Source of the DNA: Lophium mytilinum
Lineage: Eukaryota > Ascomycota > Dothideomycetes > Mytilinidiales > Mytilinidiaceae
Length of the DNA stretch: 64,000 nucleotides
Reading direction: 5' to 3'
Assembly: GCA_010093605.1 (NCBI GenBank)
Contig: MU004186.1
Coordinates: 848,616 to 912,615, forward strand
Shown here piece by piece: positions 1 to 53,128 of this stretch (position 1 is its first letter; every line of letters starts with the position of its first letter). Below the pieces are notes generated by a model. That model had not been told where the DNA came from. It made no database searches and worked only from the letters and a program-made list of their open reading frames with translations. A program made the position numbers and the translations under genes.

Positions 1-2088
1 TCTATACGCATTTAAACTATAGCCTAATACTATAGCCTTTTTAGCTCTTGGTTCTAATTTAGTTATTTGCGTTTTAACCTTATAATAAGCTGTAGAGCCA
101 AAGATTTTTATATTATCTATTTCAGCTTTTCTTTTATAATATAGCTTAAATGGCGTTTTATCTTTTAAGCTAGAGTGCGGCGTTCTATTATATATATATA
201 CGGCCGCATTTACAGCTTCTCCCCATAGATTAAAAGGTAAATTAGCTGTATATAATAGAGCCCTTACTATATTAAATATAGTTAAATTAATTCGTTCTAT
301 TAAGCCGTTTTGTTCCGGCGTATAGGGGCTTGAGAATTGATGGGTTATACCCGTTTTTAAAAGAGTTGTTTTAAACTTCTTATTTATATATTCTCCCCCA
401 TTATCAGTTTTAAAGATTTGTATCTTTCTTTTATCTCCTGTATTTTCAGCCTTAGCTTTATATTCTAAAAAGGCGTTATAAGCTTTATCTTTAGACTTTA
501 ATAGTTTATATTCTATATATCTTGAAGCTGTATCTATAAAGAAGATAACGTATTTATTACCCCCTAAAGTAGGTGGATTTATAGGCCCTGCTAGATCTAA
601 AGATACTTTTTGTAAAGGAATTTCAGATTTTACTGTTAATTCCTTACTTCTTTTATTTTTAGTCATCTTAGCTTTTATACAGGCTTCGCATTATATAGGT
701 TCTTTTATAGGTGGTATACCTAATAGTATACTAAGCTTTCTAGAGCTTATATGGCCCATTCTTTGGTGCCAAATAGATAGATTATTTCTATCTATGTATG
801 TATTTGTTAAATCGCTTTTATCTATCTCTTTATGTATTTAGTTCATTTTTTCATCTATTTGCTTTATAAAAAGCGTTGTATTTTCTAGATTTATATAGTA
901 TAAAGAGTTTTTAAGCGATGCTATTACTAGTATATTATTCTTTTTATATATAATAGCTGTTTTATTTTTAAATGTAACGTTTATTCCTGCAGAATCTAAT
1001 TTACTTATAGATATTAGATTATATCCAAAGTTAGGTATAAAAAGGCACTTTTCTAGTATAAATATATTCCCATTTAGTTTTAATTGTACATTTCCTACAC
1101 CCTTTGCGGTTGTAGTTTTATTTTCTCCCCAATTTAATATAGTAGCTTGTTCTTTATAGCTAGTAAATAGCTTTCTATCTACTATTATATGGCTTGTGCT
1201 CCCGGAGTCTAATATATAATTAGCTTCGTTATTAGGGGTATAATGGGATGCTAGAAATACCTTTACTTTAGCTGCATCTAGTTCTATATCGAAATCGTCC
1301 CATCTAGGGTTAGATTCCTCTATAATTAAGGATTCTTCCTTATTTTCTTTTGGTGGTTCAAAATATTCTTTTGTTCTAAACCATTTTGGTGCCTTTTCAG
1401 GAAATAGATAGAAACAATCTTTTGTAAGGTGCGTAGCTGTTTTACACTTCTTACAATATCTTGTTTTTTCTACTCTATTCTTATTTTTAGGCAAGAACTT
1501 TTTAGTTCTATTAAATAGAGCCGTTTCGTGCTCTTTAGACTCTTATCTTCTTACTTCGTCCATTAAATTAGAGAATAAATCATCTAATTTAATATTAGAT
1601 GAATTTTCCCTATAGGATTGCGTAACCATTATTACAAAGCCATCGTAGGGGTCCGTTAGGTTATTTAAAACCCAGGCTACAATAACTTAATTTAGTAATT
1701 CAAGCTTTTTCGCTTTTAATTGATCTATTAACTATTTTATCTTATTTAAGTAATCTTCCATAGTTAAAAACTTAGATAAAACAGTATTAAACAGCTCCTT
1801 ACAAATAAGGAATTTAGAACTAAAGCCCTTTGGGCTATATAGCTTCTTTAGTAGCTTCCAAGCTTCTATTGCAGTAGCAGAATACTGTAATTGTAATAGA
1901 GGACCATCCTCTATAGTAAGCCTAATAGTGGCTAATGCTTTTGCATCGTTTTCCTTATTAATAGGAATAGGAGTAGTGCTGCTAATAGCATCACTACAAC
2001 TTTTTTCTACTAAGAGAGATTGTACTCTTAGAGCCCAAACTTCGTAGTTAGATTGACCAACTAGCTTGGTAATACTGATTTTATCCAT
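1..2088 (-). mobile_element. Ty1/copia LTR retrotransposon fossil, broken, cut by window edge
   Basis: Remains of a copia-family LTR retrotransposon on the minus strand. Order from its 5' side: a gag-like segment (about 1732-2088, with the NYEVWALRVQSLL type motif of copia gag), then a stretch with a CCHC-like zinc knuckle and the DSGSTSHI aspartic protease motif (about 838-1494), then integrase-like sequence reaching position 1. The rest of pol lies beyond the window. The element is broken at several places and sits in very AT-rich DNA, consistent with an old copy hit by repeat-induced point mutation. No LTR was identified with confidence on its right side. It is treated here as a fossil. 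Confidence 0.85.
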
Positions 2089-2096
2089 TTTAGATT

Positions 2097-2255
2097 GAAT
2101 AGATAGATAGATAGCCCGTTAGGCAAATAGATAGATAGCCCGTCAGGCAAATAGATAGATAGCCCGTTAGGCAAATAGATAGAAAGCCCTTTAGGCAAAT
2201 AGATAGATAGCCCGTTAGGCAAATAGATAGATAGCCCGTTAGGCAAATAGATAGA
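2097..2255. repeat. 24-bp minisatellite built on GATA units
   Basis: About six to seven head-to-tail copies of a roughly 24-bp unit consisting of AGATAGATAGCCC followed by GTTAGGCAAAT. The copies differ by one or two bases. It begins immediately beside the 5' end of the copia gag-like segment. The open frame across it is only an effect of a repeat unit divisible by three. Confidence 0.9.
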
Positions 2256-2545
2256 TAGATAAATAGATAAATAGATGGATTTCTATATATCTATAGATTT
2301 GTTAAATAGATAGATTTCTATCTGTCTATGTATTTGGCGAATGGATAGATAGATGGATTCTATGTATCTATGTATTTAATGAATAGATAAATAGATAAAT
2401 AGATAAATAGATGGATTTCTATATATCTATAGATTTGTTGAATAGATAGATTTCTATCTATCTATGTATTTAGTAAATAGATAGATAGATGGATTCTATG
2501 TATCTATATATTTGATAAATAGATAGATAGATAGAAAGAGAAATA
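2256..2545. repeat. degenerate GATA/TATC microsatellite tract
   Basis: Continues from the minisatellite as imperfect AGATAGAT and ATCTATCT runs. Longer blocks containing GATGGATTTCTATATATCTA and ATCTATGTATTT are repeated two to three times at intervals of roughly 100-120 bp. A further clean (GATA)n run lies at 3118-3142. This is low-complexity DNA inside the AT-rich block, with no gene. Confidence 0.8.
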
Positions 2546-2707
2546 TTTCAATTTTTAATCAATTTCTTTATCTTGTGTTGGATAAGATAATAGGATAAAA
2601 GGTTACAATCTAATCTGGAGTATCTAGATTTAATACATAATAGATAATAGATGTTAGAAGGTTGATTGCGTGGTTTGTAACGTGATATAAGCTTATAGAA
2701 GCTTCGT

Positions 2708-2985
2708 GTTAATAGATATAATAAATAGGTAATATTTCTTCAGTCTGATTTTGTTCGTGATAGATTTGCAATTCCAGATCGCGTTCCAGCTGTTGTATAG
2801 CGGGTTTATAGTCGATAACTTCGTCTCCTTTAATTTCGGCTTCGTTTTCGGCTTCGTTTTGTGCTTGAAACCACTCGTAGGGTGGTGTAGTAGGTTCGTA
2901 CGCTGGAGATGGTGATCGAGATGGTAAACGGCGTCGTTTTCGTCCGATATTTGGTCGATTTAAATAATTCTGGTTGATATTTCGT
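2708..2985 (-). other. coding-like remnant, unrecognised
   Basis: One minus-strand frame stays open for about 85-90 codons in otherwise stop-rich AT-rich DNA and has protein-like composition. A basic, serine-rich start (GRKRRRLPSRSPSPAYEP) is followed by TPPYEWFQ and an acidic, glutamine-rich tail ending before 2708. There is no good ATG at its 5' side. It may be a decayed host gene or part of a repeat element; I do not recognise it. Confidence 0.3.
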
Positions 2986-2989
2986 TAAT

Positions 2990-3700
2990 TTGGATGATTT
3001 TAATCAATATCTAGTTAATTTTAAGATGGAACCTGCCCGTTAGTGCTTTATATAGCTGTAGATTGCGTGGTGCAATCCAAGCTTATAACCTATCAAAGGT
3101 ATAGAGTCAATGGGAGAATAGATAGATAGATAGATAGATAGGAATTATATTACTTGAGTTCTATTCTACATCAACAGCAACAAAGTATATATACAGCATT
3201 TAATGCATTATAAAACGTTTCTCTAACGTTCTTGTAACGTTATCTAACGTTTGTTGTATCACGTTTAAACGCTCACGGTTTCATCCCGTTTGAAGGCTTT
3301 TAAGCCTATTATGCGTAAGGATATAACGCTTATGCTATTATAATCCTTACAATATCTGTAATATAATGCAGGTTTAACTAGCTTAGGGGCGGGTAGCCTA
3401 TAATTTAAGTTGCTATAGTTGGAATTATAAGCTGGCTATTTATACTTAAAATAGCGTGCTAAAAGAGGCGTTTTACCGTTTCAATAGTATATAGTAATTA
3501 TATTACTATATAAAACATATAATATCTATTAGTAATATATACTTAGCTTTCTATTATAAGAGTAGTATATATATATACTAAGTTAACTAAGCTACAGTCT
3601 ATTAGCTAGATTATTAGTACTAATAGTAGCCCTTAGTCTCTATAGATGCATAGTAGGCTATTTTATAATTTATAGATTTCTTATAGTTTAATAGGATATA
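2990..3700. other. AT-rich intergenic block, no gene seen
   Basis: AT-rich sequence with a (GATA)n run at 3118-3142, a cluster of repeated TAACGTT motifs around 3215-3265, and many TA-rich runs. I see no gene. Base composition changes abruptly to about 50% GC at about 3.7 kb. Confidence 0.6.
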
Positions 3701-3859
3701 TATAATATGTTATCCTGTTCTAACCTTGCTACTATACACATTCTTCCTGTTTACACAGGAAGTCTGCCTAGAATACAGAGAACCTGCCTTCCAGGAGAAG
3801 CTTTACAGCGACCTAACTTTGAACTAAACAAGTCCTTATCTTCATTAGGCTATTCCCAT

Positions 3860-4694
3860 CTATGGAAACTGGTCTTCTACCTGCTTGAATCTTGGCCACC
3901 CACTGGTGTCCTTACCTAGATATTTGGCCACAAGTTCGATAACACCCTGGATGTCCTCTGCGTCTTTGGCGTTGACCCCAATGTATCGGGTGCCTCTCAA
4001 GTGGACCAAAGTTGTATAATATGCCCCTTGTCCCATCGTGAGTGATAGAGTAACCAACTCATTCTCCACAGGAGACAGCACGTTCAGATCCCCCAAGAAA
4101 AGCCCGTAAATAACGTAGTCCACAGTCCAAGCTACCTCATTTAGCTAACTCTCTCTATGATCGAGTCTTGGCTTGGGATAATCACTCACTGAAATCTTCC
4201 TCATTAGCATACGTGCCCTCAATTCTCGCGATTTCTTCTGGCTTGAACACCTTTCCCCACCATTCATTTCGACGCTGTATAGCACGTTCAGGTGCAGCGG
4301 CATACTCCTTCCGGTCCCACTCTCGCGCCGAATCTTCCTCGGGTTCCACGCGTTTGAGAGCGAAAAAGGCGTCACTACATCTCGGCATGCCGGCTAGACA
4401 CCAAGACTTCAGGATTACCGCACGTAGCCGTCGGGATACATTCCGACGTGCTTCCTGGGTACTATCGCTTCCAAGCTCTTTGATAATGAACTTATATAGT
4501 TCGGCAACGTGCTTTCCGCCATCTGCGGTGATAAGGGTCGCTGTCTATCCACGGATCGTGTTAGTGGGGGATTGAGCCCATACGGTACCTGAACCTACAA
4601 CTATAATGTACCAGGAATCATCCGAAAGAGATTTCGGGGTTTGGTCTCGGGCTGCTTGGAATACGGCCTCTAATGACGATGCTTCGTTGGACAT
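3860..4694 (-). CDS. carboxymuconolactone decarboxylase-like (AhpD-fold) protein
   Basis: Predicted 240-aa protein from three exons: 4694-4599, 4544-4190 and 4131-3860. The introns begin GTAGGT and GTGAGT and end in AG, and all three exons stay in one frame. The N-terminal half carries GGKHVAELYKFIIKEL and SWCLAGMP. The C-terminal half, with NEWWGKVFKPEEIARIEGTY, then VDYVIYGLFLGDL and VHLRGTRYIGVNAKDAEDI, fits the fungal carboxymuconolactone decarboxylase/AhpD-like family. I see no clear CxxC redox pair, so an alkylhydroperoxidase activity cannot be claimed. The start at MSNEASS is the first ATG that fits the family; upstream residues in frame lack similarity. It is divergent from the D-amino-acid oxidase gene. 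The enzymatic substrate is unknown. Confidence 0.72.
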
Positions 4695-14823: not shown

Positions 14824-15015
14824 TACTATGGTATCCGGCGTATCTTTTGTGAGTGGGGACTGAGGCGCGTCAGCAACAGGGGATTAAAACACAGACCAAA
14901 ACAAGGGTTTCCACCAATTATTTCTTCAGCATTTACGTTACCGCGTAGCCGTGCGCTTACCGAGATGAAAACGCCACAGTCCCCACTCACAAAAGATACG
15001 CCGGATACCACAGTA
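14824..15015. mobile_element. MITE-like foldback element, 39-bp terminal inverted repeats
   Basis: Two arms, 14824-14862 and 14977-15015, are reverse complements over 39 bp with one mismatch; the inner 34 bp match exactly (start TGGTATCCGGCGTATC). They enclose 114 bp of unrelated sequence. TACTA occurs directly left of the exact arm and again at 15014-15018, three bases beyond the right arm, so a target duplication is possible but not clean. Size and form fit a miniature inverted-repeat transposon; there is no coding capacity. Confidence 0.6.
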
Positions 15016-29835: not shown

Positions 29836-30444
29836 GGGGAGGGATAAGCGCACACCCCCTAATTCCTCCACGCACGCCCCCTAATTCCTCCACGCACACC
29901 CCCCTATCGTCTGATCTTCTAAAATTGGCTCGGAGGGCTCGGATCACTGCTCCGGCGTATGTAAGGCCGTACGTGAGGCTGTACTTATAGCAAAGCTATG
30001 CAGTATACCCGTTTTACCATGCATACTTCCCGTTTCCTGTCTATAGAGGCTATTGTATTACTACATATATGCCTACACGTCTAGGAGCATGCCAAAACAG
30101 TCAAAACCTCACCTTATTACGGCACCTCCACATCAAACATCGCCGCCGCACCCCCCTGGCTATCCTAATTAATAACCCCCTCTATTCCATCTGATACAAT
30201 GCCATCTAACGTAGGAGCTCCTCAACAGTAAGCCGCGCCGGCGCTGCCTGAGCCTAAGGCTAAGGCTCAGCGTATTGTGGAGGTGTAGGATAAGGATGTA
30301 ATTGTAGAGAAGTAGAATTAGTAAGCGAGTTAAGCGTGAGAATAGAGCTCCGGGCGACGTTCCGGCCCGTTCTGGCCAATTAGAAGATCAGACGATAGGG
30401 GGGTGTGCGTGGAGGAATTAGGGGGTGTGCGCTTATCTCTCCCC
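29836..30444. mobile_element. nonautonomous DNA transposon A, hAT-like, 8-bp TSD
   Basis: A 609-bp element flanked by the direct repeat ATTTATCG (29828-29835 and 30445-30452). The ends are inverted repeats starting GGGGAG: the left arm spans about 29836-29929, the right about 30374-30444. The left arm carries one extra copy of a 22-bp C-rich subrepeat (29850-29871 and 29872-29893). An 8-bp target duplication is typical of hAT elements. Inside, a frame from the ATG at 30199 (MPSNVGAPQQ, then AAPALPEPKAKAQRIVEV) is interrupted three times by TAA/TAG codons, each explicable by CpA-to-TpA change, the RIP signature. It may be the start of a former transposase. It is not mobile by itself. Confidence 0.8.
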
Positions 30445-49842: not shown

Positions 49843-51512
49843 ATGGATTCTAGCAGTGACGACGATTACCATGAATCCCCAGCAAAGAGGCTTCATGCAG
49901 ACGATACGCCACCAAAGCCATCCACGCCGGAGCCAATTACGCCAGAGCCAGTCACACTAGCTAATCCAAGTGATTTGACCCTCATCGTTGGTCCCCTCGG
50001 TCAAAGTATTCACGTATCTAGAGGCGCATTGCGTCTCGCGAGCCCTGTGTGGAACACAATGTTCTCAGATCAATGGGCGGAGAGTTCCAAGAAAGAGGTG
50101 CAATTTCCGGACGACGATCCAGAAGCTTTATTAATTGTTTTGGGCATCGCGCATCTCAGATTCAAAGAAAGGCCGAAAGTCTTACTGTATCGCCAACTCG
50201 TCGAACTTGCTGTCATATGCGACAAATATGATACCGTTGCTGTCATTCGCCCTTTCTTGCAAGAATGGATAGGGTACGAAGAGATGAAGGTTGGACCTGG
50301 AACGGAAGAGTGGATTTTCGTCGCTTGGACCTTTGGCATCAGGGATAAATTCGTCAATGGAGTCCAGGACTTGGTGCGAAATACCTTAGCAGATGCACAG
50401 GAATGTTTAGTGTGGCCTGAGCAACATGTGACTTTGCGCCTACCTATAGACCTCTTAGGTATGTTAGAATCATTATCTCTCATTTATCAGTAATCGTTTC
50501 CAGCTCAATCTGTTAAAGTTTCGGAGTTGAACCGCCTATCCGTTATGCTGACGCTATTTTCTAGATTGCATTTCTCAAGCTCGCCAGGAATCGATCACAA
50601 AACTCATGAACCTGGCATTCGGGCACTTGGACACATGTGTCTCTATTAACAAATGCGCTAGAGGAAGTCAAACATGCATAGGGAATACAATGGACGAGCC
50701 TGATTATCACCCCCCTTTTTGCTACGTATCACCCCCCATTTTGCTACATATCACCCCCCCTAGGTTCAGCCTAGCTCCGGCTCGTAACAACTTTGTTTGA
50801 CCAATTAGACTGTTGTCTAGGCTATAATAGTGTTCCACAGCGTTTTTAGTTCACTAGCGTAGCAGCTCTCCACCGGACGATTAGGTAACTTAACACCGAC
50901 CCAGGGCTCTATTTCCTTAGTCACCAACAGTCAACTAACCTTTAAGTGAGGATGGTACTCTATCTACTTGTGAGGCGGAAGCTACTTTAGATAAGGAGCC
51001 GGTAAAGCGGGAGGATATTCAGTCTAGTGTTCCTCTATTTTTGATTTTACGCATATATGTACTAGTCATGCGATTCCTTCTATATAAACGAGGGCGAGCC
51101 TGTGATATGATTGGTAGAACAGCATTAATACGGACCGGAGCTAGGCTAAATCCAGGGCGGGTGATATGTAGCAAAATGGGGGGGTGATACGTAGCAAAAA
51201 GGGGGGTGATAATTAGGCTCGTCCAATACAATTGGACACTTACTAAAGGGGCTGCACGGCGTAGGAATTTGGCCAAACAAGCCTGAGGCATCCACTTACC
51301 CATGTTCTTTTCAAACGCTATATAAGGCGATATCAGCAATCAACATACCGCGGCACGACGGCCCGCTAGACTATTATGGTAAAAACCCACACTCCATGTG
51401 TGCGGATGGTATCGCTGGTCTTCAAAGTGGAATTGACGCTCTCAATGCGTTGTTGCCTTTTGGTTACAAAGCACACCACTTGAAACATATCGAAGTGCAG
51501 GCGGAGAAGTAG
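49843..51512 (+). pseudogene. BTB/POZ-domain gene 1, split by a DNA transposon
   Basis: Exon 1 is 49843-50458; the 106-nt intron (GTATGT...TTCTAG) leads to a second exon that starts at 50565 and is cut at 50691 by a 533-bp transposon. Host sequence resumes at 51233 and continues in frame to a TAG at 51510-51512. Without the insert and one target-site copy, the gene would code 340 aa. The N-terminal BTB fold includes SDLTLIVGPLGQSIHVSRGA, FPDDDPEALLIVLGIAHLRF and LVELAVICDKYDTVAVIRPF. The C-terminal half has no named domain but resembles the tandem neighbour. With the insert, translation enters the transposon and meets a stop near 50800, so the product loses about 93 residues. BTB proteins mediate dimerisation and often Cullin-3 binding; the role here is unknown. 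Confidence 0.85.
50692..51224. mobile_element. nonautonomous DNA transposon B, hAT-like, 8-bp TSD
   Basis: A 533-bp element flanked by perfect direct repeats AATACAAT (50684-50691 and 51225-51232). The terminal inverted repeats, about 94 bp each, begin GGACGAGCCT and are about 90% identical. Each arm holds three copies of a roughly 22-bp unit of the form TATCACCCCCCATTTTGCTA. There is no transposase frame inside. The 8-bp target duplication suggests mobilisation by a hAT-type transposase. It lies within the last exon of BTB gene 1. Arm divergence may be ancestral; the untouched target duplications point to a fairly recent insertion. Confidence 0.9.
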
Positions 51513-51788: not shown

Positions 51789-53128
51789 ATGGAGTCATCC
51801 TCTCCAACACCTTCAGGCCCATCGACGGAGTCCGATGCCCGCACCATGTCGGACAATCCGTCTTCTCCGCGACTCCATCGTACCGTTTCTTTAGACGACT
51901 CCAGTGACATAGCACTTGTCATTGGAGAAGAGTGCTCGGATGAGCCTGTCCGAGTCGAAGTCCTCAAGGGCGCTCTTCGTCTCTCGAGCTCTGTGTGGAA
52001 GACCATGTTCGAACCAGGTCGATGGGTAGAGAGCTCAAAGGCGGAGGTGGCGTTTCCCGACGACGATCCAGAGGCAATGCTCATGATTCTCCGCATCGTA
52101 CATCTCCGCTTCCGAGAGCTGCCTGAGGGGAAACTCAGCTTGGCAAAGTTGTTGTCCCTTGCTGTTGTATGTGACAAATACGCTACCGTTGGCATCGTCA
52201 GACCCTGGCTTCATGTCTGGGTTGATATCCCTAAGAAAGTTACGAGCGAGCCCGACTGGCTGTTCGTCGCATGGGTGTTTGGATATACGCGTATATTCCA
52301 GGACGTTGCGAATAAACTAGTCACCTACCTGGATACGGACTCCGACACGTATAACTCTCTCATGCTTGATCCAAAACCTCCTGGTATTGTCGGTAAGTAC
52401 TAGACTCCGTTTTCTCACCTTGCTGCAGTAATAGGCCTTTGGCCTGTGCGCGCGGCAGGTTTTCTTTGGCAACTCTGTAGTTGCTTGATACCACCGCCCG
52501 AGCCTGCTTCGTTGCACAAGTATTATATCACGCGCCTTCAAAGGTTAGCTCGGATTTGGGATAAGCGACTGTAGCATTCGGTCCAAAATGTTAGAATCCT
52601 GTGAGCGCACGCTGAGCGATGGCAAACTAAATAGGGGTGCACACATTTCTTGCGAGGCACTATTCTCTCAAACTATTATATAAGTATGTTGTATGCAAGA
52701 CGCTAACTTTTATCCTAGAAAACATCCTCCAGGCTAGGATACAAGTCATACAGCGCATCTTAGACATATGCTACACCACCCTCGACAAAAGCGCTGGAGC
52801 TCGCCATAAGTGCTGCCAACATAGCTCCCCTCTTTGCAGCGCAGCCATTGTAGGAGCGGTGGTGCAGGGATACTACAATTTTGGCCTCCTGCCACATCGA
52901 CTCAACGCCAACACCACCACAATGAGTATATACGATTTGACGGCGAAGCTAAAGAACTTCGATTTGCTCACTCATAAGGAACTCGAATATGGTGGCTACC
53001 TAAGTCACTTACAGTGCCCAGCTAGCTATATCAACATTCTCTACACCGCGCAAGAGATAGGGAAGAAAGCACCTAAGGTCGTTGAGGACAAGCATCTTCG
53101 ACACATGGAGGCGCAGACGAAGGCTTGA
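51789..53128 (+). CDS. BTB/POZ-domain protein, gene 2
   Basis: Predicted 337-aa paralogue of the split gene just upstream. Exons 51789-52392 and 52719-53128. The BTB fold follows a serine/proline-rich start: SSDIALVIGEEC, VLKGALRLSSSVWKTMFEPG, FPDDDPEAMLMILRIVHLRF, LLSLAVVCDKYATVGIVRPW. The second exon starts ENILQARIQVIQRILDI, aligning with DCISQARQESITKLMNL in gene 1, with the intron in the same place and phase. It ends QEIGKKAPKVVEDKHLRHME. The intron is 326 nt, three times that of gene 1. No transposon is seen in this copy, so it may cover the lost function if the two were redundant. No MATH, Kelch or ankyrin partner domain is visible. Confidence 0.82.

Follow-up and report, generated by a model that had tools for sequence, protein, structure and literature searches.

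The window analysed here is a 64-kb stretch of DNA from a genome whose 24 contigs total 43.2 Mb. Its short introns and RIP-like repeats, together with the gene content, suggest a filamentous ascomycete as the source. Scans of the 64-kb window for tRNA genes and Rfam families gave no matches. Within the window lies a two-exon gene of the BTB type whose last exon is interrupted by a short element with inverted ends, followed downstream by an intact paralogue (Table 1). The model of the split gene was built from sequence alone.

Table 1. Features of the split BTB gene, its insert and the neighbouring paralogue (positions in the window).
Feature	Position	Strand	Basis
Exon 1, 616 nt, with BTB domain	49843..50458	+	open frame, GTATGT donor at 50459, PF00651
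Host intron, predicted	50459..50564	+	GT...AG ends, relative position as in the intron of the neighbouring paralogue
Exon 2 before the insert, 127 nt, its last bases being the first target copy	50565..50691	+	open frame
Target copy AATACAAT, left	50684..50691	+	sequence
Non-autonomous MULE insert (element B of the first-pass annotation), 533 bp	50692..51224	+	inverted ends, target copies, ends common to the C2 MULE
Left inverted arm, about 114 bp, 22-bp C-rich units	50692..50805	+	sequence alignment
First in-frame stop (TGA) for the host frame inside the element	50798..50800	+	translation
Right inverted arm, about 115 bp	51110..51224	-	sequence alignment
Target copy AATACAAT, right	51225..51232	+	sequence
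Exon 2 after the insert, 280 nt, TAG end	51233..51512	+	open frame, alignment with three paralogues
Neighbouring intact paralogue, 337 aa, exons 51789-52392 and 52719-53128	51789..53128	+	two-exon open frame

Exon 1 encodes a BTB/POZ domain, identified by its match to PF00651 (25.8 bits, cut-off 20.5). When the insert and one target copy are set aside, the coding parts join into 616 + 127 + 280 = 1,023 nt, a length that is divisible by three and open throughout, and the rejoined host frame runs from 49843 to the TAG at 51512 with one intron and encodes 340 amino acids. The first-pass annotation had described a transposon splitting the last exon of a BTB gene, which the open rejoined frame bears out; its account of host sequence in the same frame on both sides, 127 nt before the element and 280 nt after it, ending in TAG, is exact. 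As the DNA stands, the frame encodes 283 amino acids, composed of 247 host residues (the BTB domain included) and 36 from the element, the latter counted as codons lying wholly or partly within it. The 93 residues lost align with three paralogues. In this lost part three or all four of the sequences agree at 21 alignment columns, which include an H-x-x-C and, at the terminus, H-I/M-x-x-Q; in the part of exon 2 that precedes the insert there are 10 such columns. No Pfam family was matched by the 92 residues encoded downstream of the insert.

The insert is abutted directly at both ends by perfect copies of AATACAAT, and the first-pass observation is correct to the base. Its two arms are identical at 100 of 114 aligned bases (a 115-bp alignment at 87%), and over the outermost 52 bases at 50 of 51. 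C-rich units recur in both arms at a spacing of 22-23 bp and may represent putative transposase binding sites. Given that the inverted repeat fixes the ends, we infer a chance of about 1 in 65,000 for an exact flush 8-mer at equal base frequencies, a figure that would be less extreme at A/T-rich sites. Because these odds are low and the pattern recurs across the family, the flush 8-bp copies exceed what chance would give. The insertion into the exon, although clearly marked, is an ordinary event of a known sort.

When the insert was used as a DNA query against the genome, at least 52 matches from 20 scored candidates were obtained. Sixteen regions were fetched; 10 of these hold a copy that was compared at both ends and two contain the ends of a stretch of 11.5 kb on C3, while L015, L018, L020 and L024 each show one believable tip and were left out of the member count. 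The 12 members compared are thus the window's insert, L009-L014, L016, L017, L019, L021 and the C3 end pair. Exact, flush 8-bp target copies were found in 11 of these 12. The exception, L012, is AT-rich and degraded, and its right end, placed where the search match stops, is uncertain. Six or more A/T bases are present in 10 of the 11 target 8-mers, compared with 14.6% of 8-mers in the window. Among the matches listed, the best other match over most of the insert is the degraded L012, at 68% identity, and no near-identical sister copy of the insert was found in the genome among them.

Three members are of full length. L009, on C2, measures 2,852 bp and has arms of 130 bp that are 97.7% identical. 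L010 on C5 (2,852 bp, 33% GC, RIP-like index 1.59) and L011 on C6 (3,071 bp, 30% GC, RIP-like index 1.60) have transposase matches riddled with TAG and TAA codons. The C3 end pair (C3:1976428-1987921; L022, L023, L061 and L062) consists of two ends of the same family that lie 11.5 kb apart with TTTTGCTT outside both, a broken transposase is present near the right end, and the first half has 24-38% GC. Neither half contains an ATG/GTG/TTG open frame of at least 100 amino acids. The content of this pair could be either nested insertions or captured DNA.

The C2 copy contains a MULE transposase domain, PF10551, at 81.2 bits (E 8.1e-23, cut-off 27.6), and this piece scores above the cut-off for PF21056 (ZSWIM1-3 RNaseH-like) as well, with 29.3 bits against 27.2. 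Both ends of the insert match this copy, over 116-138 aligned bases, as do 44 internal bases, at 82-84% identity. On this alignment the insert appears as a non-autonomous member of the family whose middle is mostly unmatched, and not as a recent simple deletion of the C2 copy. The transposase domain in the full-length relative, the 8-bp target copies and the long inverted ends together place the insert family among the MULEs, for which target copies of 8-11 bp and terminal inverted repeats of 14-500 bp have been described (PMC6446971). PF10551 was also found in three of 14 named control genomes, and the domain alone is therefore no marker of fungal MULEs; the ends and target copies are.

The coding sequence of the C2 copy is split into separate open frames. 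Across the genome there are 17 matches to PF10551 (16 above the cut-off), 15 of them with stops; stop-free matches were seen in the C2 copy and on C10, where a partial match at 1914742 falls in an open frame of 310 amino acids. When the C2 copy's first transposase piece was used as the query, 23 matches were obtained, of which 21 hold stops; the other two are the C2 copy and a stretch on C7 with 30% identity. Since most transposase matches hold stops and the C2 copy is broken, no intact helper of the insert's family was seen among the matches listed in the genome. Such a helper may have been missed or may sit in another strain.

Comparable elements have been described in other ascomycetes. VdMULE1-3 of Verticillium dahliae belong to the Mutator superfamily and have full-length forms of 3.4-3.6 kb (PMC3441728). 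Their inverted ends are given as 53-86 bp in the text of that source and as 73-86 bp in its table, VdMULE1 and 2 carry three sub-terminal direct repeats of 15-17 bp, an 8-bp target copy is reported for one VdMULE, and shorter defective copies span 363-2,371 bp (PMC3441728). The same source names Hop1 as an active MULE of Fusarium oxysporum and reports the terminal consensus GGNAA for Hop1 and the VdMULEs (PMC3441728). By these descriptions VdMULE1-3 resemble the insert family as MULEs of a fungus, in their inverted ends and sub-terminal repeats (the latter in VdMULE1 and 2), in the 8-bp target copy of one of them and in having shorter defective copies, and Hop1 shares with it the MULE type and an ascomycete host. 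The insert family differs in having GGACG or GGAGG at the ends of most copies in place of the GGNAA of VdMULE1-3 and Hop1, in its longer arms of about 115-130 bp with 22-bp C-rich units (53-86 bp in the VdMULEs), and in full-length members of 2.85-3.07 kb that are shorter than those of VdMULE1-3 (3.4-3.6 kb). A narrow look through the literature for insertions in fungal BTB genes found no match, and we do not claim that such cases are absent from print.

It is very probable that a MULE lacking its own transposase was mobilised in trans and hit the BTB gene at an A/T-rich 8-mer within the last exon, duplicating it. The shared ends suggest that the transposase of a full-length relative moved the short MULE; the insertion itself is shown by the anatomy of the locus. 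The 340-residue protein can no longer be translated directly from the allele. If the allele were transcribed and translated, the product would consist of 247 host residues with the BTB domain and 36 residues from the left end of the element. Loss of the full-length product from the split allele is well supported by the predicted reading frame, and the function of the gene is likely to be lost or impaired. The event had been called a clear insertional inactivation. With respect to the full-length product, which the stop at 50798 would end, this description holds; as a statement of full inactivation it goes too far, since the allele still encodes the BTB domain and, in all, 247 of the 340 residues. 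The locus illustrates cleanly how a coding exon of a fungus can be broken by a short derivative of a MULE. It also calls for caution in annotation, as automatic gene calling could return a 283-residue BTB protein with a tail made by a transposon.

It is possible, if rather unlikely, that the allele has been changed without becoming null and yields a short BTB protein, working or altered, whose tail comes from the element. Of the 340 residues 247 remain open, among them the intact BTB domain, and 36 more codons are read into the element; with that domain unharmed, the shortened product may retain its function. Transcript decay triggered by an exon junction requires that junction to lie downstream of the stop, and is not expected here because the stop falls in the last exon. 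The 93 residues lost, however, hold positions common to all four aligned relatives (the H-x-x-C and the terminal H-I/M-x-x-Q), and the new 3' untranslated part of the split allele is long. A further step in the same direction would be that the C-rich ends of these MULEs swap a C-terminus for a proline/histidine-rich tail and that the BTB allele is a fusion kept by the fungus, a proposal that we consider very doubtful. Two of the three frames reading into the MULE ends are open, for 26 and 35 codons (in the reverse orientation 25 and 67), as counted in this one copy. If the proposal were true, insertions in exons would tend to replace protein tails and not stop proteins at once.

Removal of the element from RNA in the manner of an intron, as with introner-like elements, would leave the gene working and is highly improbable. 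Fourteen GT-AG pairs would keep the frame open to the host stop, some of them using the TTAG at 51216 in the right arm. None of the 14, however, fits the donor pattern GT[A/G]NG, which the gene's own intron does fit; pairs that do not start inside the element also delete host residues, and in no case is the original host sequence recovered exactly. This explanation was rated unlikely, as none of the frame-keeping pairs has a good donor by the tested pattern. A shortened working BTB protein is the more serious rival of the two, because the BTB domain is untouched. That the insert is a hAT-type element, a type that likewise makes 8-bp target copies, deserves almost no credence and was rejected because the related 2,852-bp element holds a MULE domain and two scanned open frames of that C2 copy matched no hAT family, even with E values of up to 1 allowed. 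Arms of more than 100 bp are, moreover, long for a hAT. Two Verticillium hATs are described with ends of 20-22 bp (PMC3441728).

The first-pass annotation had taken the clean target copies to suggest that the insertion could still be polymorphic, and had treated it as a fresh disruption; neither freshness nor polymorphism is supported by these copies. The degraded members L010 and L011 also keep perfect 8-bp copies, and target copies therefore do not separate young from old; within the insert's family perfect target copies have no dating power and are no sign of youth. The arms were compared between the insert and nine other members, with L012 left out. Identity is 107-114 of 115 in L009, L010, L011, L016, L017 and L019, 101/114 in L014, 95/105 in L021 and 77/95 in L013, such that eight of the nine have more equal arms than the insert. 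If anything, the uneven arms of the insert count against a very young element. No age was derived from arm divergence, since the arms may not have been equal at insertion.

A neutral decay simulation of the downstream part, in which the indel rate was assumed to be one tenth of the substitution rate, left this part open in 76% of runs at 1% divergence, 26% at 5%, 7% at 10% and 0.7% at 20%; with stops alone counted, 24% were open at 20% divergence. The open downstream part therefore bounds the age only weakly. Comparison with the C9 paralogue gave 24/92 identical residues for the downstream part of the split gene and 28/91 for that of the neighbour (Fisher p 0.52), and by these counts the lost part appears to carry no excess divergence. 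For the part of exon 2 before the insert the corresponding figures are 7/42 and 15/44 (Fisher p 0.085). This lower likeness to C9 ahead of the insert suggests that the gene may have been diverging anyway.

It had also been proposed that the intact neighbour may have made the insertion tolerable. The neighbour is 32% identical to the split gene (105/324) and is no closer to it in exon 1 (47%, 130 bits) than is the C9 paralogue (48%, 150 bits), and its role as a backup is unsupported. Its own BTB match, at 16.0 bits, falls under the threshold of 20.5 that Pfam sets. Over exon 2, 31/134 residues of the split gene are shared with the C9 paralogue and 29/134 with the neighbour, while the latter two share 43/135. 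A search with exon 1 gave 20 matches in the genome, the split gene itself counted. No empty paralogous site was seen, the 280-nt downstream part matching only itself in the genome at E 0.001. Some BTB relatives are clustered, with four matches at C15:622612-628854 and three at C5:2301990-2312982, and one of the C15 relatives has two in-frame TAA stops.

Other repeats are present in the window. A second element with inverted ends, of 609 bp and with other ends, lies at 29836-30444 and has perfect 8-bp copies of ATTTATCG on both sides. Its relatives are found near PF10551 matches on C7, C10, C12 and C17, and because of this proximity the 609-bp element is probably another non-autonomous MULE. 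At 14824-15015 there is a 192-bp stretch with 44-nt inverted arms that are 95% complementary. The first part of the window (1-4000) is AT-rich, with 28-34% GC, and an open frame at 838-1494 resembles, by eye, a retrotransposon gag-protease stretch.
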